A stretch of 64,000 nt of DNA from Gammaproteobacteria bacterium. GTDB taxonomy: Bacteria > Pseudomonadota > Gammaproteobacteria > Burkholderiales > Burkholderiaceae_B. The stretch is from the NCBI GenBank assembly GCA_018815245.1, contig JAHIXK010000002.1, positions 186,001 to 250,000 of the forward strand. The letters run 5' to 3'. Positions 5,776 through 63,998 of this stretch are shown one piece after another; the first letter of the stretch is position 1, and each line of letters begins with the position of its first letter. The notes beneath the pieces were generated by a model. It made no database searches, was not told the DNA's origin, and saw nothing but the letters and a program-made list of their open reading frames with translations. A program made the translations under genes and the position numbers.

Positions 5776-6351
5776 ATGTTCAAACAAACTGTTCGAACCC
5801 TCTCAATCTTGGCAGCACTTTTTTCAATTCACACAGCGGCTTCTGCAACTTGCACAGGCACAGACTGCCAGGTAGACGTAAGTGGCAGCTTCGATTTCTC
5901 ACTGGGCGAAAACACCAATGGCATTTACGTTCAGAAAAACGTGGGCACCAACACCGCCATCGTTGACCTGAGCCGCGTAGTAATGCGCGACAACGGTGAC
6001 GTAGCCGCCAATGCAACTGCTATTGGCAACAACATGAGCGTGACCTTGGGCGCAGGTTCCACCGCGCCAATTCGTCACGTTTCCCAAAGCAACTACGGCG
6101 ACCAGACTGCAAGCGTTCGTTTGCAGCAGAGCCACCTGTCTGTTACTGGTGAAGTTACGCTTGAAGCGATCAGCATCGGCAACAACTTCAGCCTGAGCCT
6201 GGACAACACCAGCTTGAGCGAATTGTCTGTTGCCCAGTGCAACGTAAGCGACAACGTGGCCCTTACTTCTTTCGTTTGGGATCCAACAAAGCTGACAGCC
6301 AATGCCACTGCGATTGGCAACAACATTTCAATTGGCGGCGTACGTCCTTAA
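5776..6351 (+). CDS. secreted protein with repeated ATAIGNN motif (HfaD/HfaA-like adhesin subunit candidate)
   Basis: No enzyme domain is recognisable. The 191-residue protein has a clear signal peptide (FKQTVRTLSILAALFS, cleavage near ASA-TC at residue 24), so it is exported. The mature part is rich in Asn, Ser, Thr and Val and carries three related units: ANATAIGNNMSVTLG (79-93), EAISIGNNFSLSLD (130-143) and ANATAIGNNISIGG (175-188). Alternating hydrophobic and polar residues in these units suggest beta-strand stacking, as in amyloid-like surface proteins. It has three Cys. I start at ATG 5776 because TTGGAG stands eight bases before it; a TTG at 5752 is in frame but lacks a site. The next two genes encode a similar small protein and an HfaB/CsgG-like lipoprotein. 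The Hfa-type role is inferred from motif and context. Confidence 0.72.
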   Translation: MFKQTVRTLSILAALFSIHTAASATCTGTDCQVDVSGSFDFSLGENTNGIYVQKNVGTNTAIVDLSRVVMRDNGDVAANATAIGNNMSVTLGAGSTAPIRHVSQSNYGDQTASVRLQQSHLSVTGEVTLEAISIGNNFSLSLDNTSLSELSVAQCNVSDNVALTSFVWDPTKLTANATAIGNNISIGGVRP

Positions 6352-6360
6352 TTGAATTTT

Positions 6361-6427
6361 TTGCCCCGGGCGAACTACCTTACTAGTCAGTTTTATGTTT
6401 CCAGAGGTTGCCCGGGGCAATCTTTTC
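6361..6427 (+). terminator. long-range stem-loop between the two ATAIGNN-protein genes
   Basis: An 11-base perfect stem (TTGCCCCGGGC, 6361-6371, with 6410-6420) closes a 38-base loop and is followed by TCTTTT. It could be a partial terminator or an RNA-stabilising stem giving unequal expression of the first gene and the next two. Confidence 0.5.
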
Positions 6428-6464
6428 AAATATACCCAAGTTAAACAACCATTGAAAAAATCGA

Positions 6465-6785
6465 ATGAAAAAAACAGCCGTGTTCATCACCATGTTTGCC
6501 CTTCAAGCAAGCAACACATACGCCCAAACATTTGAAGGCAACGTCAACACATTCGAAACCCCTTTCGGCATGAAAAGCGTTACCGATATTGATACACCTG
6601 CCGGCACACGTCGCGATGCAAACTTCAATCGCACCCAAATTGAGGCACCAGGCCTGGGCTTTTCCGCCACTGCCATCGGCAACCTGATCAATGTTCAAAC
6701 AGACGGAAACAACAACACCGTGGTGATCAATGCAACCCAAATTAACAGCGGCCCACAGAACGCCACGCTAGACGGTGGCTTTTAA
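6465..6785 (+). CDS. small secreted protein, HfaA-like holdfast-anchor candidate
   Basis: Exported protein of 106 residues with a signal peptide (MKKTAVFITMFALQASNTYA, cleavage about residue 20). The mature part ends in a patch of FSATAIGNLINVQTDG followed by NNNTVVINATQINSG, the same Ile-Gly-Asn signature as the gene upstream. From memory this resembles the holdfast attachment protein HfaA of stalked alphaproteobacteria, a small amyloid-like surface protein exported by HfaB. No strong ribosome site precedes ATG 6465. The next gene is an HfaB/CsgG-type lipoprotein 43 bases downstream, the hfaA-hfaB order known in Caulobacter. Function in this organism is inferred. Confidence 0.68.
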   Translation: MKKTAVFITMFALQASNTYAQTFEGNVNTFETPFGMKSVTDIDTPAGTRRDANFNRTQIEAPGLGFSATAIGNLINVQTDGNNNTVVINATQINSGPQNATLDGGF

Positions 6786-6828
6786 CCCATCACCACTTTC
6801 GTTACTGAATACTGAAAAGGTTTTTACT

Positions 6829-7944
6829 ATGTCTTGCCATCCATTACACAAAATTGCATTCATCATCGCAATGGCTGCATCAGCCAGCGCTTGTACAACG
6901 CTTCCTTCGTTCAGCAAAGCCGAGTACGTCAGCCCTTTTGATGGAGCAAGCGTAGTAGAAAATACCACGCGTTACAGCAGCGCACTTGAGTGCCTCAAAC
7001 CCATGATCGGCGGACGCGGGCCATCGGCAAAGCGCTTTGCCGTGGGCCGTGTTAGCGACTTCACCGGGAAAGAAGACCTTGTCAACGGCAAGCGAATCTC
7101 GCAAGGTGCCGCCCTTATGGTCATATCAGCCTTGGCCAAAACAGGTGTTCCAATTGTGGAACGCTTTGACACCAGCATCGCCGACATGGAATTGAAGTAC
7201 GCTGACAACAAACTGATCACCGACAACCCCGAGGGCAAAGCACACCGTCAAATTTTATCCGCTTCCCTACCCGGTTCGGATTACCACATTGTTGGCGGCA
7301 TCACCGAGGTGAATTACAACATCCGCAGTGGTAGCCTTGAAACATCATTCCGCTTTATCGGCGCAGCCGCCCGTTACTTCGTAATGAACGTGGCCGTTGA
7401 CTTGCGCGTGGTGAATACCAAAACCCTGGAAGTTGTAAATACACAAAGCCTGCAGAAACAAATTATCGGTACCGAATTAAATGGTGGTTATTTCCGTTTG
7501 TTCTCTGATGGCTTGGCTGATGTTAATGCAGCGGAACGCACCCAAGAACCCATTCAGAAAGGTTTGCGCATGGTTATTGAGCATGCAGTGTTCAAAATGA
7601 TGACAGAAATGAACAATGTGCCTGCCGCAAACTGCTCAAAAATGACCACAGCAGCCACAACGACACCAGCAAAGCAGGCCATCAACCCGATTGTGCTGAC
7701 TCCACCGCCAACAGCCAATGGCGCAACCGAAGAAGCAAGCGTACAGATCGATCCGTACACTGGCGAAATTGTTCGGGGAAACAGCCCTACCGGAACAGCC
7801 CAGACAAAACCGCAAGGTGAAACAATTGGTTTAAAGGGACTATTCGGATCTTCTGCAGCACCTACACCTCAAGACGCAAGTGATAACACGAAGCGCGAAA
7901 TGCAAGAAAAGTTGCTATGGGGTAACAGGCCTCAAATTCGGTAG
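6829..7944 (+). CDS. CsgG/HfaB-family outer-membrane lipoprotein
   Basis: Probable secretion channel or assembly lipoprotein in the outer membrane, exporting the two small proteins encoded upstream. The 371-residue product starts at ATG 6829, eight bases after AAAAGG. Its signal peptide ends in a lipobox, ASA-C22. The body (about 45-270) fits the CsgG fold: a strand such as KRFAVGRVSDFTGK, then ISQGAALMVISALAK, VPIVERFDTSIADMELKY, DYHIVGGITEVNYNI, VAVDLRVVNTKTLEVVNTQS, and a closing helical stretch. In CsgG and HfaB these segments build the nonameric channel. The last 90 residues are Pro/Thr/Ala-rich and low in complexity. No other curli genes are nearby, so HfaB is the closer analogue. A bidirectional terminator follows. 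Confidence 0.78.
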   Translation: MSCHPLHKIAFIIAMAASASACTTLPSFSKAEYVSPFDGASVVENTTRYSSALECLKPMIGGRGPSAKRFAVGRVSDFTGKEDLVNGKRISQGAALMVISALAKTGVPIVERFDTSIADMELKYADNKLITDNPEGKAHRQILSASLPGSDYHIVGGITEVNYNIRSGSLETSFRFIGAAARYFVMNVAVDLRVVNTKTLEVVNTQSLQKQIIGTELNGGYFRLFSDGLADVNAAERTQEPIQKGLRMVIEHAVFKMMTEMNNVPAANCSKMTTAATTTPAKQAINPIVLTPPPTANGATEEASVQIDPYTGEIVRGNSPTGTAQTKPQGETIGLKGLFGSSAAPTPQDASDNTKREMQEKLLWGNRPQIR

Positions 7945-7966: not shown

Positions 7967-8001
7967 AAAAAAAGCCTCAAATTAATTTGAGGCTTTTTTT
8001 T
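7967..8001. terminator. bidirectional rho-independent terminator
   Basis: A perfect 20-base palindrome, GCCTCAAATT and AATTTGAGGC at 7974-7993, has an A run on the left and eight Ts on the right. It ends both the CsgG-like gene on the plus strand and the CorC/HlyC-type gene on the minus strand. Confidence 0.93.
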
Positions 8002-8025: not shown

Positions 8026-9330
8026 CTATTCGGGCAACTCACGGTCATTATCAACAATCAAAGTCGCCAACACCTTGTCGATTCGCTTCTGGTCCATGTC
8101 CACCACCTCGAATTTCCAGCCATCCCAGTCCACCGTATCGCCAGTGGCTGGCAAACGCCCTGTTAACAGCATCATCATGCCACTCAAGGTGTGGTAACGG
8201 CCTTTCTCTTCCTCAGGAACGTTCTTAATATTTAAAGTGTCCTTCAGCTCCAGAATAGCGATGGCACCGTCGAGCAACCAGGAACCATCTTCCCGCTGCA
8301 CGGCCCATGAGTCTTCCTTGTTGTGAGGCGTGAACTCGCCAGTCAAGGCTTCCATCAAATCATGCAGGGTCACAATGCCCTCAAGCTCGCCATATTCGTC
8401 AATCACGAATGCGATGTCCATGTTGTTACTTCGGAACTGGGTCAGCAGCTCCATCCCCGTCAGGGTTTCAGGAACAAACACGCATTGCTGCAAATTGGTT
8501 GAAAAGTCGGGCATTTTGCCCTGAGCGGCATAAGCCAAGGCCTGTTTGGCATGAATTACACCAATCAGATTGTCCAGATTGCCATCCACCACCGGGAAGC
8601 GTGAATACTCCGACTCAATGACTCGCTTCAGGTTTTCCTCCTGCGGCAGGCGAATATCCAGATACAACACGTCCGAACGGGGAATCATGAGCGATCCCAA
8701 CTGGCGATCGTCCAGACGAAATACATTGCGCAGCATGGTGTGTTCGCTGCTTTCAATAACCCCGGAAACAGAACCCTCATCCAGCATGGCGTGAATTTCT
8801 TCTTCGGTCACGCCATTGTCCATGTTCTCTTTCACACCCATAATGCGCAGCAAACCGCGCGTGGAAAAAGACAAAAACATCACAAAGGGGCGGGTGGCAA
8901 TTGCCAGAAAGTGCATGGGCCTTGCAACCAAACGGGCAATGGCTTCCGGGTTAAGCTGCCCCAAACGTTTGGGCACCAGCTCGCCGATCACAATGGCCAC
9001 GTAAGTAACGCCAATCACCACGATGGCAGTGGAAACCACGTCAGTCATCGCAGCTTCCAAACCAAACGTTTGAAGCCAAATGGCCAAGGGCTTTGCCAGC
9101 ACCGCCTCACCGACAATACCGCTGAGCACACCAATGGACGTAATACCAATTTGAACAGTGGACAAGAACTTTGTGGGATCTTCAGACAATTTAACCGCAA
9201 CTGCAGCCGATTTGTCCCCTTCTGAAGCCAACTTCACCAAACGCGCCTTTCGGGCAGTAACCAGTGCAATTTCGGACATGGCAAAAAGGCCATTGGTCAC
9301 GATCAATCCGAGCAGAATCAGCACTTCCAT
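8026..9330 (-). CDS. HlyC/CorC (CNNM/TlyC) family membrane protein
   Basis: Inner-membrane protein of the UPF0053 family, related to Mg/Co efflux and resistance proteins. Its 434 residues show the family order. A DUF21/CNNM transmembrane domain comes first (about 1-195, with LILLGLIVTNGLFAMSEIAL, then VQIGITSIGVLSGIVGEAVL and GVTYVAIVIGELVPKRLG). Next is a CBS-domain pair (about 210-340, including SLMIPRSDVLYLD, RFPVVDG, LIGVIHAKQAL and IAFVIDEYGELEGIVTLHDL). A C-terminal CorC_HlyC domain (about 350-425) ends the protein. AAGGAG stands eight bases before ATG 9330. The transported ion cannot be read from sequence; the older name hemolysin is historical. It converges on the CsgG-like gene and shares its terminator. 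Confidence 0.9.
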   Translation of the reverse strand: MEVLILLGLIVTNGLFAMSEIALVTARKARLVKLASEGDKSAAVAVKLSEDPTKFLSTVQIGITSIGVLSGIVGEAVLAKPLAIWLQTFGLEAAMTDVVSTAIVVIGVTYVAIVIGELVPKRLGQLNPEAIARLVARPMHFLAIATRPFVMFLSFSTRGLLRIMGVKENMDNGVTEEEIHAMLDEGSVSGVIESSEHTMLRNVFRLDDRQLGSLMIPRSDVLYLDIRLPQEENLKRVIESEYSRFPVVDGNLDNLIGVIHAKQALAYAAQGKMPDFSTNLQQCVFVPETLTGMELLTQFRSNNMDIAFVIDEYGELEGIVTLHDLMEALTGEFTPHNKEDSWAVQREDGSWLLDGAIAILELKDTLNIKNVPEEEKGRYHTLSGMMMLLTGRLPATGDTVDWDGWKFEVVDMDQKRIDKVLATLIVDNDRELPE

Positions 9331-17660: not shown

Positions 17661-17695
17661 AAAAAGGGCTTTCGGCAACGCGTGCCTTTGAGCCC
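17661..17695 (-). terminator. terminator-like expression platform of the glycine riboswitch
   Basis: On the minus strand GGGCT (17695-17691) and AGCCC (17670-17666) enclose a smaller GGC/GCC stem and are followed by five Ts. It lies between aptamer 2 and dadA, so glycine binding probably prevents it from forming. Confidence 0.7.
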
Positions 17696-17886
17696 CTCTC
17701 TGTCCGTTTGCCTGAAAGATTCACAACGGTTTGCGTTGCTTGCCTCTTCGGCGGCTGTACTTACGCGGCGATTGGCCGCGCACAGCGCTCTCCAGATTTG
17801 AATTTCTGAACCTGTACTGAAGCCTGAGCGTTCATGGGGATTGCGCCTTCGGCGAACTGGCGCAGGTGCGCGCCAGTTACTCTCCA
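17692..17886 (-). promoter_or_regulatory. tandem glycine riboswitch upstream of dadA
   Basis: Two aptamers lie head to tail on the minus strand. The first starts with GGAGAG (17885-17880), then CGCCGAAGGCGCAA and CGCTCAGG. The second starts with GGAGAG (17793-17788), then GCCGCCGAAGAGGCAAG, CTTTCAGGCAAACGGACAGA and GAGGGG. A short linker joins them. This is the cooperative two-aptamer architecture normally controlling glycine cleavage genes; here it controls dadA. Confidence 0.92.
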
Positions 17887-47901: not shown

Positions 47902-49473
47902 TCAAACCGACACGGACTTCACTTGAGGCTCCGTGACTCCGGCAATTCGATAGCAGTTTTTACCGGACTTTTTGGCTTGGTACATTTGTTCGTCGCTGAT
48001 TTCAAGCAACGCTTGAATGGACGTACCGTGCAAAGGGTGCATGGCCGCACCGATACTACACGACACCGTCAAACCATGATTCTGGCGAATACGCACCAAC
48101 AATTTGTCGCAGGCAAAAGACTCGATGATTCGCTCTGAAATATTCTTGAGCAGTTGTATATTGCAGCGGGCCACAATAATGGCGAACTCATCGCCGCCCA
48201 AGCGCGCCACATAATCCACATTTCGCGTAGCACCTTTTAACAAAGTTGCGCTGGTTTTCAGGATTTGGTCGCCCGCTTTGTGGCCCAACGTGTCATTCAC
48301 GGCCTTAAAGCCGTCCAAGTCAAGGAACATCATGCCCAAAGTTTCGCCCGGCAGCAGGCGAGAAAGCCGTGCCTGCAATGTGATATCAAACCCACGGCGA
48401 TTCAACACGCCTGTCAAGGGATCACGCTCTACTTCGTTGCGCAGGTCCTCCACATTCTTGCGAATACTGACGTCCTCCACAATCAACACTGCATGCGCGC
48501 CCTGCGACTTGTCGTTGTACACGGCGAACCGGAACTGCAATACACGGCCATCGTTAAAATTCAGTTCAATGGGCATTTCGTGATTGCCAAAATAATCGGT
48601 CACCATGTCTTTTAACAGCATGCGCTGCTCTTTCACCACCCCCGCCATCAGCAGTACCTGCTCCAGGCGCACGGGCTTGGCCGGTTGAATGGTTAACTTC
48701 AACATTTTGGCCAAGGCACGGTTCAGGTACAACACCTTGAAATTTTCATCAAGATAAGCCACGCCACTTCCCAGGGAAGAAAGGAGCATGTCCAGCCTGT
48801 TCTTCTCTGACACCGAATTTGCGTGGTTCTCCTCCATCACTTTCATTTGTTGTTCAATGGCCTGCGCCATGCTGTTGAATGCTGCACCCAAACAAGAAAT
48901 TTCATCGCGCCCCCTCACTTCAATGCGCGATTGAATGTTGCCAGACTGCAATTCCATGGCCTTGCTGCGCAAATCTTCCAATCGTGCCGACAAGGTATTG
49001 CCAAGGCCGTACAAAATCATTGAGCATGCAATGGCACTTAACAAAAAAACACCCACAAGGTAGAACACCATTTCATCGCGGCTGCGGTATACCTCGTGTT
49101 GATCAAACAAGATGATCAACTGATGTCCGAGCGTGGGAAGTGCAATAGTCGACAGCAAAGGGGGGGGCAGCTGTTCAGTCGATTTCGGAACCTCCCCCAA
49201 AGTGTACAAAACACCATCCCCGGAATCGATCCAAACCGCAGTCGGTTTGTAGCGGGTGTAAAAATCCCGCACCATAGACGACACCGCATTCATGGAATAG
49301 GTACTGCCAGATCGATGTGCTTGCGTCAATTCGGCCTGAAAACTTTCGCGTGTGCGCTGTAGCTCGGTTTCAGCAACATTGGCCATGTGCGTGTATTGAA
49401 TACCCGTGAAAATGCCACCCAACATCAGTTGGGCCACAAAGGTGGTAAGCAGCCATTTCCATTTAAAAGACAT
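47902..49473 (-). CDS. membrane diguanylate cyclase (HAMP-PAS-GGDEF)
   Basis: Makes c-di-GMP in response to a periplasmic and a cytosolic signal. The 523 residues have TM1 (about 7-27), a periplasmic sensor part of about 110 residues, TM2 (FYLVGVFLLSAIACSMILYG), a HAMP linker (about 155-210), a coiled segment, a PAS-like domain (about 235-345, GSGVAYLDENFKVLYLN) and GGDEF (about 355-515). The active site RLGGDEF is intact. RNVD lies exactly five residues before GGDEF, an inhibitory I-site, so product feedback is expected. ATG 49473 lacks an obvious ribosome site. It is divergent from the tRNA gene. Confidence 0.93.
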   Translation of the reverse strand: MSFKWKWLLTTFVAQLMLGGIFTGIQYTHMANVAETELQRTRESFQAELTQAHRSGSTYSMNAVSSMVRDFYTRYKPTAVWIDSGDGVLYTLGEVPKSTEQLPPPLLSTIALPTLGHQLIILFDQHEVYRSRDEMVFYLVGVFLLSAIACSMILYGLGNTLSARLEDLRSKAMELQSGNIQSRIEVRGRDEISCLGAAFNSMAQAIEQQMKVMEENHANSVSEKNRLDMLLSSLGSGVAYLDENFKVLYLNRALAKMLKLTIQPAKPVRLEQVLLMAGVVKEQRMLLKDMVTDYFGNHEMPIELNFNDGRVLQFRFAVYNDKSQGAHAVLIVEDVSIRKNVEDLRNEVERDPLTGVLNRRGFDITLQARLSRLLPGETLGMMFLDLDGFKAVNDTLGHKAGDQILKTSATLLKGATRNVDYVARLGGDEFAIIVARCNIQLLKNISERIIESFACDKLLVRIRQNHGLTVSCSIGAAMHPLHGTSIQALLEISDEQMYQAKKSGKNCYRIAGVTEPQVKSVSV

Positions 49474-54957: not shown

Positions 54958-56970
54958 TTAAAAATCAAACTGTGCCGTCAACTTGAAATTGCGCCCCGGG
55001 TCCGGGTACACACCCACAGGCTCTACACCCGAGAAAATTGCAAATGCGTTGTAAAACCCCTGGCTGTAGTATTGGCGGTCAAACAGGTTATTCACTGAGA
55101 AAATCAGTTTCATCTGCTCAAACCGATACTTGAACGAAAGGTCTGCCAGTGCATAACCGGGTACCTTGCCTTCTTCGTTCGGTGCATCCAGGTCACCCCC
55201 CAAACGCTGATCAGACTGTGCCGTGAACAAAATCTCGGAATCAAACCGGTCTGAAATTTCATACCCCAAACCAAGCAGTGCCCGATGCGCCGGCACCAGC
55301 GGTACGCGCGTACCGCGCAACTCGCCTGTACGAAATTCGGAATCGGTATACGTGTAGGCAGCGCGCAAATCAACGCGATCGGTCAATGCGGCCGAATGCT
55401 CCATTTCAACGCCCAATCGCTGGGTTTTGTCCAGGTTGATGTTCGTGAAGTTCACGTTGGCAATTTCATCGTCCAGCATGATCTTGAACAGGCGTAGCAC
55501 CTGCTCGGTTTCACCCACCCTGCGTCGGACCCCCATTTCCAGCTCTTTGGACAACTGCGGATTCAGGAAAGTAGCTGGCGAAGGCCTTGATGTGGGATCG
55601 TTTTCATCAATATTGGGCACACGAAAACCTTTGTTGAACTTCGCAAAACCGGTCAGGGAGCCAGTCAACACACGGGAGAAACCAAGTTCATAAGCCTCAA
55701 GATCAATATTTCGCCGGGTTTCGCGATCAGCGGGCACATTAAAGCCCGAGTCGTCCGTGTCAAAACGGAATTGATCAATGCTTTCCAGCCTGTAGCCCAT
55801 GTTCACACGCAAGGTGTCGCTGACCGCCAGATCGTCGCTGATGTGAAACGCTTTTGACTTTTGCTGCCCTTTGGCCACAAAAGTGCCAAACGAGAACAGA
55901 CCCACGGAATCCAGACGCGCATCCTCGAATGCAGCACCCAAGGTCAGCTGGTGAACGCCGCCCAGGCCTTCCATTCTGTCAGAAACAAACATCGACACTT
56001 GGTCTTGCACAAGATCACGCTGACCACGCGGGTTGCCGTCTTTGAAGGTTCGGCTTTGGTCGCGGCGTGACACATCAACACCATAATCAAAGGGCATGTT
56101 GCGTGAACGCAGGTACACGCTGGTCAGGTCGCGTTTGAAAAATGAGAAATCGCCCACATTGCTCGGCGTTGGTTTGGCCTGACGGGGGTTGGCCTTGAAC
56201 TGGGCCAGGCTGAGAGAGCCGGGAAATTGAACATCGCTGGACTCGGTCCCGAATTTCACACCAGCAAGCACCTGGCTGCCCATCCAGGAAAGCCCGGCCA
56301 GCGCGCTGCCAAAATCTTCAGCGCTTCGCTCTCGGTAACCCTCCGTGGCAGACTCGGTCACATCCAGCGTGAACCCGACAGAACCTGCCCCGCCACGCAA
56401 ACCCAGCGTAGTTTCCAGTGAATCATAAGAGCCCACGGACACGGAACCAGTTCCGGACAGGGGCTGGTCAGCTTGGGGTTGCACGGTGACAATTCGAATT
56501 ACACCGCCGGATGCACCATCGCCATAAGCCACCGAGGCGCCACCACGCATGATTTCAATTTGCTCCACAGCACTTAAAGGGATGCTTGAAATTCGGGCGG
56601 TTGCCAACTCTTTTTCGCTGTATCGAATGCCATCAACGATCACAGCAACATTGGTATCGGGACTGGAACCACCAAAACCACGCAGATCAAAGCTTGCATC
56701 ACGCGAACCCACCAGGCCAGACCGGGTGTTCACAAAGCCCAACTTCTGGATCACTTCCGCCAGCGAGGTGTAGCCAGAATTCTCGATTTCATCCCTGGTA
56801 ATCAATGTGGCAGAAGGGGGTACCGCTTGTTTGCTATCGACCAAACGGCTGGACTTGACAACCACAGAAGGCAGATCGCTGCGCCCCTCCCGGCTGGTTT
56901 CGATGGTTTGGGAGAAAGCAGCGCCAGCAACGCACGCCAAAGGAAGCAATACAAAAACAGTTGATTTCAT
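54958..56970 (-). CDS. TonB-dependent receptor, vitamin B12 type (BtuB-like)
   Basis: Outer-membrane receptor, most likely for cobalamin because a cobalamin riboswitch stands in its leader. The 670 residues from ATG 56970 have a signal peptide (MKSTVFVLLPLACVAGAAFS). The plug domain has VVVKSSRLVD near the TonB box position, LITRDEIENSGYTSLAEVIQ, FDLRGFGG, VAVIVDGIRYSE, IEIMRGGASVAYGDGASGGV. A 22-strand-type barrel follows and ends RNFKLTAQFDF with a terminal Phe. The frame extends upstream to 57081 without a fitting protein start. Specificity is inferred from the riboswitch, not from the barrel. Confidence 0.88.
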   Translation of the reverse strand: MKSTVFVLLPLACVAGAAFSQTIETSREGRSDLPSVVVKSSRLVDSKQAVPPSATLITRDEIENSGYTSLAEVIQKLGFVNTRSGLVGSRDASFDLRGFGGSSPDTNVAVIVDGIRYSEKELATARISSIPLSAVEQIEIMRGGASVAYGDGASGGVIRIVTVQPQADQPLSGTGSVSVGSYDSLETTLGLRGGAGSVGFTLDVTESATEGYRERSAEDFGSALAGLSWMGSQVLAGVKFGTESSDVQFPGSLSLAQFKANPRQAKPTPSNVGDFSFFKRDLTSVYLRSRNMPFDYGVDVSRRDQSRTFKDGNPRGQRDLVQDQVSMFVSDRMEGLGGVHQLTLGAAFEDARLDSVGLFSFGTFVAKGQQKSKAFHISDDLAVSDTLRVNMGYRLESIDQFRFDTDDSGFNVPADRETRRNIDLEAYELGFSRVLTGSLTGFAKFNKGFRVPNIDENDPTSRPSPATFLNPQLSKELEMGVRRRVGETEQVLRLFKIMLDDEIANVNFTNINLDKTQRLGVEMEHSAALTDRVDLRAAYTYTDSEFRTGELRGTRVPLVPAHRALLGLGYEISDRFDSEILFTAQSDQRLGGDLDAPNEEGKVPGYALADLSFKYRFEQMKLIFSVNNLFDRQYYSQGFYNAFAIFSGVEPVGVYPDPGRNFKLTAQFDF

Positions 56971-57180
56971 GGTGTTCACCGCAGTAAACCGCACCCACCG
57001 CGCGGCAAGAAAATTCGCTGGGGTAACACAACACAGGCGGTGATTCAGAACGCGCAACAACACCGATGACTGCAAAGCCACAGTAAGCCACTGAGAAAGG
57101 TTCTAAAGAAACAATGGGTCGCCTGCGCACTGCCTCCCCGCAGCACCAGTCGCTCGCCTGAATGGGACAGGCTGAACGGT

Positions 57181-57360
57181 CAAGGCCGGTATCCGGGCTT
57201 GCAAGTTTTGATGTGTCGCCTTCCCAGTGGCTGCGTGTAAAGCAGCTTTACTACCAGTGGCAAAATGACACACCCGCACTTACTTACCGTTGCGGGGGCA
57301 GCGCAGGCTTGAACCTGCTTCCCGTTTAACTGCGCTCAAAAAATGAGCACAAGCACCTTA
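57181..57360 (-). promoter_or_regulatory. cobalamin riboswitch
   Basis: On the minus strand the leader shows AAGGTGC, GTTAAACGGGAAGC, the B12 box core GCCTGCGCTGCCCCCGCAAC followed by GGTAAG, then CACTGGGAAGGCGACACATC and AAGCCCGGATACCGGCC, all in the order of the cobalamin aptamer. About 210 bases separate it from the receptor start, and this stretch has no further gene. Cobalamin should turn expression off. Confidence 0.93.
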
Positions 57361-57435
57361 ACCCTGCTATTCTAACGTGTTTTTTTAACTCCCAAACCTC
57401 GGCGCACCTAGTTTATGTAGTGCGATTGAAAAGCC

Positions 57436-63587: not shown

Positions 63588-63998
63588 CTAGGGCCTTGCA
63601 AATAATTGCGGGCCCAGTCGGTGGATCAGCCTGTCACTCACGAAGGCATGAATCACCGCGAACTGATCATTGTTAAGCGACTTCAAAGCCAAACCATATG
63701 CAGAAGACGACTGGCCTGCATCCTTCGACTTAGACACAACGTCAGCGCTGCACTCGATCAAGTATTTCCTGTCGTCCAGAACGATCTGGAAAGCAACTAA
63801 AATGCTTTGACCAATCTTCAGGGCAACTTCCCTTGAAAAAAGCAGCTCTAGCCCACCAGTGGACAGGTTGTCTATCACCGCAGCAACAGGCTCAATTGTT
63901 GCAGCACCTGGCTCGCCTGAATTCAATCGGATTGTAGCCGGCAAATCACAGGCAACACGCTTCGCTCGTCGAATGGCCTGTGATTCCAAATGCGTTTC
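63588..63998 (-). CDS. PilZ-domain protein, 5' end uncertain at window edge
   Basis: Probable c-di-GMP receptor. The visible frame has the PilZ ligand pattern: RRAKR (Arg-x-x-x-Arg) near the start and DNLSTGG (Asp-x-Ser-x-x-Gly) about 40 residues later, followed by beta strands (LELLFSREVALKIGQSILVA, KYLIECSADVV). The frame is open to the window edge (63998), and the only start inside is TTG 63989, 133 residues. The true start may lie beyond base 64000. It ends 22 bases from purB tail to tail. Confidence 0.72.
   Translation of the reverse strand, partial: ETHLESQAIRRAKRVACDLPATIRLNSGEPGAATIEPVAAVIDNLSTGGLELLFSREVALKIGQSILVAFQIVLDDRKYLIECSADVVSKSKDAGQSSSAYGLALKSLNNDQFAVIHAFVSDRLIHRLGPQLFARP

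Follow-up and report, generated by a model that had tools for sequence, protein, structure and literature searches.

A compact Hfa-type locus of Limnobacter that probably secretes and assembles a small surface anchor

Results

A three-gene cassette with relatives of HfaA, HfaB and, distantly, HfaD

Analysis of a 64,000-nucleotide stretch of DNA (the window; positions 186,001–250,000 of contig JAHIXK010000002.1 in the 3.2-Mb assembly GCA_018815245.1) revealed a three-gene cassette that is a compact variant of the known Hfa kind of system. We consider it probable that the locus is a secretion and surface-assembly system of this type, which would export two small proteins, P0001 and P0002, by way of a third, P0003, into a cross-beta surface anchor. 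The host of the cassette is Limnobacter (Burkholderiales), and the nearest named loci likewise belong to Limnobacter. All three genes are open reading frames on the plus strand, as a preliminary description of the window had placed them (protein lengths in amino acids, aa):

Gene 1 (P0001), 5776–6351, plus strand: 191-aa putatively exported protein, short and distantly HfaD-type, with three repeats of ~50 residues (Q-x-N-x-G ... G-N)
Gene 2 (P0002), 6465–6785, plus strand: 106-aa putatively exported HfaA-type protein with a single ATAIGN motif and, judged by eye, one curlin-like stretch
Gene 3 (P0003), 6829–7944, plus strand: 371-aa lipoprotein of the CsgG/HfaB family, putative outer-membrane pore

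The content and order of the cassette are identical in 12 of 12 further Limnobacter/Burkholderiales loci (L002–L013; the HfaB of L010 is 78% identical), which argues against a chance arrangement.

Sequence matches place P0003 securely in the CsgG-fold family, with the holdfast equivalog label narrowly missed. The protein scores 65.1 bits against Pfam CsgG (gathering cut-off 20.8), and a sequence search of the PDB returned five distinct matches at E ≤ 1, all of them CsgG, the best at 5.8e-9 over residues 131–257. Its match to the NCBIfam curli CsgG model (38.7 bits, cut-off 505) is far weaker than that to NCBIfam HfaB. The lipobox-like ASAC is shared by 8 of 13 Limnobacter orthologues, the window included; the others carry ISAC, GSAC, ATAC or SVGC, or are without a pattern match. 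The earlier identification of gene 3 as a CsgG/HfaB-like lipoprotein is thus borne out by the Pfam, NCBIfam and PDB matches. P0003 also matches the PHROGs family phrog_20175, whose function is unknown.

For P0002, the profile comparisons indicate clear homology to HfaA. A profile of its orthologues matches 14 HfaA rows from other genomes at a profile–profile E of 3.1e-18, the best of 50 column-shuffled controls being 0.05, and the NCBIfam HfaA model matches all 13 of 13 orthologues (E ≤ 0.1). The N-terminus looks like a signal peptide (by eye), and the ATAIGN-type motif occurs once, as SATAIGNL.

P0001 likewise starts with a signal-peptide-like stretch (by eye) and carries the motif three times (NATAIGNN, EAISIGNN, NATAIGNN), in keeping with the earlier account of two small exported proteins with ATAIGNN-type repeats. 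Among 13 orthologues the invariant columns recur thrice (Q53, N55, G57 and N85; Q104, N106, G108 and N136; Q154, N156 with A179, G181 and N182), G84 and G135 are nearly invariant, and Cys26, Cys31 and Cys155 are invariant. Profile searches suggest that the protein is distantly HfaD-like. The orthologue profile matches 11 HfaD rows, two of which were checked as HfaD on NCBIfam (366 and 174 bits), at E 2.6e-7, where the best of 50 controls reached 0.14. Against five short repeat proteins (four from Brevundimonas or Caulobacteraceae, one from another genome) it gives 2.4e-7, with 0.014 as the best of 50 controls. The NCBIfam HfaD model directly matches 2 of the 13 orthologues; across 16 Limnobacter genomes it finds the gene 1 place in two, at E 7.7e-8 and 9.6e-7 (32 and 28 bits), and exceeds its cut-off of 100 in none. 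A repeat model built from Limnobacter alone also detects, in other groups, repeat proteins next to HfaB, the best at 3.8e-14 (for a nominal 1000 sequences), the best of 1000 shuffled decoys being 0.054. A Pfam scan of seven repeat and HfaA proteins from other loci gave no match over the cut-off.

Repeat proteins accompany HfaB across loci

To what extent HfaB and repeat proteins occur together was counted in 44 HfaB loci (duplicates L014, L017 and L018, L001 and the short stretches L019–L052 set aside). A repeat or HfaD-type protein lies within 3.5 kb of HfaB on the same strand in 38 of the 44, a count that is partly in-sample, the profiles having been built from many of the counted proteins. 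An HfaA-profile match is present in 33 of the 44; in L069 it is the repeat protein itself. The Limnobacter-only repeat model, which makes the fairer test, finds a match in 12 of 32 non-Limnobacter loci. Of the six loci without a repeat partner, L015 and L072 lie at contig ends, and in L067, L068 and L095 a giant protein of 1002–1566 aa takes the partner's place.

Predicted fold of P0001 and its likeness to FapC

The fold of P0001 was predicted with AlphaFold2 from 13 orthologues and compared with the PDB by Foldseek. The best model reached a predicted TM-score (pTM) of 0.66 and a mean predicted local distance difference test score (pLDDT) of 69.6; from residue 51 on, ten-residue blocks average 72–92, with 58 in the last block. 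The model has nine predicted strands in three sets of three, three strands for each repeat. The sole fold match at E ≤ 0.001 was FapC (9u4u; E 1.3e-4, probability 0.99), the next match having an E of 0.28 and the CsgA fibril ranking ninth at 0.45. FapC is reported to consist of three imperfect repeats, each forming one cross-beta layer with conserved Asn and Gln (PMC12392863). P0001 and FapC possibly share an architecture, which we do not read as homology; a sequence link between the two was rejected, there being no sequence match. A search of a viral fold library returned one unnamed protein at E 8.4e-4 with a TM-score of about 0.25. It was not used, and by this measure a lone fold match near 1e-3 is weak.

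Points that weigh against an Hfa-type anchor

Several results speak against the reading proposed here. The curated models fall short for all three window proteins: P0003 matches NCBIfam HfaB at 279.4 bits, under the cut-off of 300; P0002 reaches 42.3 bits against a cut-off of 50 for HfaA; and the NCBIfam HfaD model does not match P0001 of the window. The earlier description of an HfaA/HfaB/HfaD-like locus holds for genes 1 and 2 at the level of profiles, as a distant likeness to HfaD for the former and as homology to HfaA for the latter. The Limnobacter repeat model matched canonical HfaD in one of 11 rows at E < 0.001. Our own HfaD profile (A5) found no match in the window genome, a search that says little because P0001 itself was also missed. 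The HfaB copy in L057 has no repeat partner by profile, although its stretch is not cut.

The structural predictions carry further points of this kind. The five P0001 models spread widely (mean pLDDT 67.2, 61.6, 41.6 and 31.8 for the four below the best), residues 1–46 stay below 50, and the model of P0002 is useless (pLDDT 48). For the match to FapC the TM-scores are 0.28/0.32 and the root-mean-square deviation is 10.6, a FapC layer is reported to have five short strands (PMC12392863) against three per repeat predicted for P0001, and a search of the PDB with the P0001 sequence profile found no amyloid, FapC included.

A conserved RNA hairpin follows gene 1

The short space between genes 1 and 2 contains a further conserved element:

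RNA hairpin, 6361–6420, plus strand: conserved structure with compensatory changes

The energy z-score of the hairpin is −4.3 in the window and −1.3 to −3.5 in six relatives. When the window is aligned with nine relatives (ten sequences), 87.9% of the cells for the hairpin's 14 pairs are paired, and seven pairs change on both sides, compared with a shuffle mean of 2.8. Neither value was reached in any of 500 shuffles, and slid versions pair in 28–60% of cells; these controls are lenient, since the alignment had also supplied the structure and its sequences are related. A hairpin of different sequence lies at the same intergenic place in L011–L013 and so persists in distant species. An intrinsic terminator was considered and set aside: the hairpin is not in the terminator scan list, and most relatives are without a T run (by eye). 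We infer that it is an mRNA 3′ protector or attenuator that would leave gene 1 in excess.

A proposed course of export and assembly, and its alternatives

The computed family relations, conserved cassette, repeats and hairpin can be put together as follows. The lipoprotein P0003 would assemble in the outer membrane as a ring like that of CsgG. Sec signal peptides would direct P0001 and P0002 out of the cytoplasm, and both would then cross the outer membrane through this ring. Each P0001 repeat is predicted to make up a single layer of three strands, with Asn and Gln conserved. On the surface these layers may stack, perhaps with the HfaA-type protein as partner or nucleator, to give a small amyloid-like anchor of cross-beta structure, which would hold cells to surfaces either directly or by gripping exopolysaccharide. 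The hairpin probably makes P0001 the most abundant product. Two of the alternatives below overlap with this proposal, and the degrees of confidence that we attach to the several readings do not sum to one.

Rather unlikely, in our view, is a free fibre system like curli or Fap, with P0001 as the major subunit, P0002 as a nucleator at HfaB and the fibre as an adhesive matrix. The FapC-like three-repeat prediction is in line with it, as is the position of gene 1 at the head of the cassette with a conserved hairpin behind it, which would favour gene 1 excess. The genome of the window, however, gave no match to the curlin repeat PF07012 (E ≤ 1) or to CsgE and CsgF (PF10627 and PF10614; E ≤ 0.1), whereas the E. 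coli control matched each. Curli identity was rejected on this ground, and the earlier statement that no curli genes lie beside the cassette extends to these three families in the whole genome. A further point against a free fibre is that in Caulobacter the related proteins are described as a stalk-tip anchor (PMC6707917). A 2012 survey of curli reports two curli systems in Burkholderiales, and a term search of it found no Limnobacter, Caulobacter or holdfast (PMC3521004).

We regard as unlikely a true holdfast-like anchor that tethers one specific Limnobacter exopolysaccharide, in the way that HfaABD tethers the holdfast in Caulobacter. The cassette has a counterpart for each of the Caulobacter anchor proteins, and three of three Limnobacter genomes examined share a polysaccharide export locus (L088, 8685–16478) that encodes a long Poly_export protein, a Wzz-like protein and two more proteins of ~230 and ~950 aa; this locus looks Yjb-like. 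The window genome has two Poly_export proteins and each of the two other genomes has one, of the long form. Near the short one, a second export locus of the window genome encodes Wza-, Wzc- and CpsD-like proteins (labels by eye) that match L093, an export locus of Caulobacteraceae, at E 3.7e-12 to 1e-25. Against this alternative, the short Wza-type protein occurs in one of the three genomes, the window's; the Caulobacteraceae export loci L091 and L092 share only a sugar transferase at E ≤ 1e-8, and locus L094 gave no match. The cassette moreover lies away from polysaccharide genes, being flanked on one side by nadB-nadC-nadA in 12 of 12 loci (names of flanking genes by eye). It is very improbable that the CsgG-fold lipoprotein serves envelope maintenance and that the small proteins share merely Asn-rich low-complexity motifs: composition alone can match Asn-, Thr- and Gly-rich repeats, but the column- and residue-shuffled controls fall far below the real comparisons, the gene order is kept in all 12 loci, and the Limnobacter-only repeat model matches beside HfaB in 12 of 32 others.

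No report of an Hfa system in Limnobacter stood among the paper titles and abstract openings listed; the one paper that pairs Limnobacter with holdfast concerns, by its title, algal epiphytes.

Distribution and phylogeny of HfaB

HfaB is present in 16 of 16 Limnobacter genomes, in none of them over the NCBIfam HfaB cut-off. In samples of genomes from wider groups it was found in 2 of 399 genomes of the order (158 genera, E ≤ 1e-15), both Limnobacter; in 1 of 369 genomes of the class (272 genera, E ≤ 1e-20), the window's own; and in 18 of 398 genomes of the phylum (E ≤ 1e-20), namely the window's own and 17 others. Three of three Caulobacteraceae genomes searched encode a higher-scoring HfaB (413–423 bits) and, at a second locus, two tandem HfaB genes (347–361 bits).

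In trees of 45 and 48 HfaB rows, from which Caulobacter vibrioides HfaB was left out, the Limnobacter sequences form one clade (support 100/100) on a stem of about 0.9–1.0, separate from the clade that holds the canonical copies, the tandem copies and every named Caulobacteraceae row. Forcing the canonical and Limnobacter sequences together costs 17.6 log units (p-AU 0.034, approximately unbiased test; the groups were named after the first tree), and grouping of the canonical with the tandem copies was not rejected (p 0.59). A third tree, minus four long rows and plus two phage rows, kept the Limnobacter clade and left the deepest forks without resolution. This deep, separate clade speaks for an old divergence or an unsampled donor and not for a recent gift from Brevundimonas, a transfer that the HfaB trees do not support.

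HfaB-like genes also occur on plasmids and in giant phages. Seven records of a plasmid collection match HfaB, one of Variovorax paradoxus, five of Vibrio alginolyticus and one of Photobacterium ganghwense, all predicted to be non-mobilizable; one plasmid each scored 195, 139 and 139 bits, respectively. A tblastn search of the plasmids with P0001 gave no match. The preliminary description had stressed the presence of such a set outside the stalked alphaproteobacteria. This is true of Limnobacter, and uniqueness to Limnobacter outside the alphaproteobacteria is rejected by these plasmid genes. On the Variovorax paradoxus plasmid CP063168.1 (L095, 5357–16749) the stretch encodes a 153-aa protein, the HfaB-like protein and a 1566-aa 'S-layer family' protein, and includes two EAL-domain genes. 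The Vibrio alginolyticus and Photobacterium plasmids (L096, 7932–9864; L097, 7992–10005) carry a CsgG/HfaB family gene followed by genes for a repeat protein (222 or 243 aa) and a small protein (131 or 154 aa).

Nine phage records match the HfaB search, including two that repeat a phage already entered, and two loci were read. The giant phages CcrColossus of Caulobacter (L100, 3302–5666) and Kabachok of Brevundimonas (L101, 3288–5893) encode HfaB (207 and 235 bits) and then a repeat protein of 309 or 355 aa. With the Limnobacter repeat model these repeat proteins give E 1.2e-12 and 1.8e-14, and with the HfaD model 1.5e-5 and 1.3e-7; the preceding 163–165-aa protein has no match to the HfaA profile. 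We found no literature joining CcrColossus with CsgG.

Tentatively, and with less confidence than in the anchor itself, we suggest that HfaB pores and their AIGN-repeat partners constitute a general class of functional amyloid distinct from curli and Fap, in which a CsgG-fold pore would export a FapC-like layered protein. Limnobacter would hold its compact stand-alone form, and the plasmids of Vibrionaceae and Variovorax and the giant phages of Caulobacter and Brevundimonas would carry it too, perhaps remodelling the host surface.

Surroundings of the cassette

The flank opposite the nad genes has a CNNM-type gene and thiC in 10 of 12 loci and thiC alone in L011; the shorter stretch L012 shows neither there. 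Shared synteny with Caulobacteraceae was considered, nad genes lying near the hfa-type locus of one metagenome-assembled genome (MAG; L014/L077, one genome) and in L071, and was dropped because they were not seen in the remaining non-Limnobacter stretches compared. Downstream of gene 3 lies another hairpin:

Terminator-like hairpin with A and T runs, 7967–8000, listed on the minus strand by the scan and plus by eye: between the cassette and the convergent gene 8026–9330

The scan lists three terminator-like sites in the window, with no excess over the shuffle mean of 3.7. Three cyclic di-GMP proteins had been reported in the window, and all three are present (HAMP-GGDEF-EAL, 16–1515; HAMP-GGDEF, 47902–49473; PilZ, 63588–63989); none adjoins the cassette. 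The window also contains a cobalamin riboswitch (57167–57375, minus strand) just upstream of a TonB-dependent receptor gene (54958–57081, minus strand) and a glycine riboswitch (17690–17805, minus strand).

Discussion

Comparison with known systems

Present throughout the genus, this minimal version has an HfaD-type protein of just three repeats, whose small size should allow expression and structure solution and would thereby open the structure of such an anchor to direct test. The repeat in common suggests that the anchoring of holdfasts and the layered functional amyloids may belong to a single kind of machine.

FapC of Pseudomonas resembles P0001 in its three imperfect repeats and conserved Asn and Gln and is its best PDB fold match, but differs in having no sequence match to it, in the five strands of its layer against three predicted, and in the weak TM-score. 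The Fap exporter FapF is not known to be CsgG-like, unlike P0003. Curli (CsgA–G) share the CsgG fold of the P0003 pore family, whereas the Limnobacter genome is without a detected curlin-repeat protein, CsgE or CsgF.

Also comparable with the cassette are the plasmid loci of Vibrio and Photobacterium and the phage loci of Caulobacter and Brevundimonas, where a repeat protein found by the Limnobacter model follows the HfaB-like gene; they differ in that no separate HfaA is detected by profile and in that their HfaB proteins fall into other clades. The second hfa-type locus of Brevundimonas/Caulobacteraceae MAGs (L075, L076 and L077) has the same order of short repeat protein (216–235 aa), HfaA and HfaB, but has two tandem HfaB genes that group with the canonical ones.

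In Caulobacter, HfaA and HfaD are reported to need HfaB for their place at the cell surface (PMC6707917). HfaABD (NCBIfam NF037934, NF037935 and NF037936) and the cassette have in common a CsgG-fold HfaB, an HfaA with the ATAIGN motif and a secreted AIGN-type repeat protein. They differ in the repeat protein, with canonical HfaD open frames of roughly 410–490 aa against the 191-aa, three-repeat P0001; in gene order, which is A, B, D in the canonical-type loci read and D-like, A, B in Limnobacter; and in the separate HfaB clade, the missed curated cut-offs and the lack of an established holdfast polysaccharide locus. Homologues of the parts of the HfaA/HfaB/HfaD-like locus first described are present, but their curated scores, gene order and HfaB clade depart from those of HfaABD. 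Because of the cut-offs and the clade test we do not accept the cassette as a member of HfaABD, although in its parts it would work like HfaABD.

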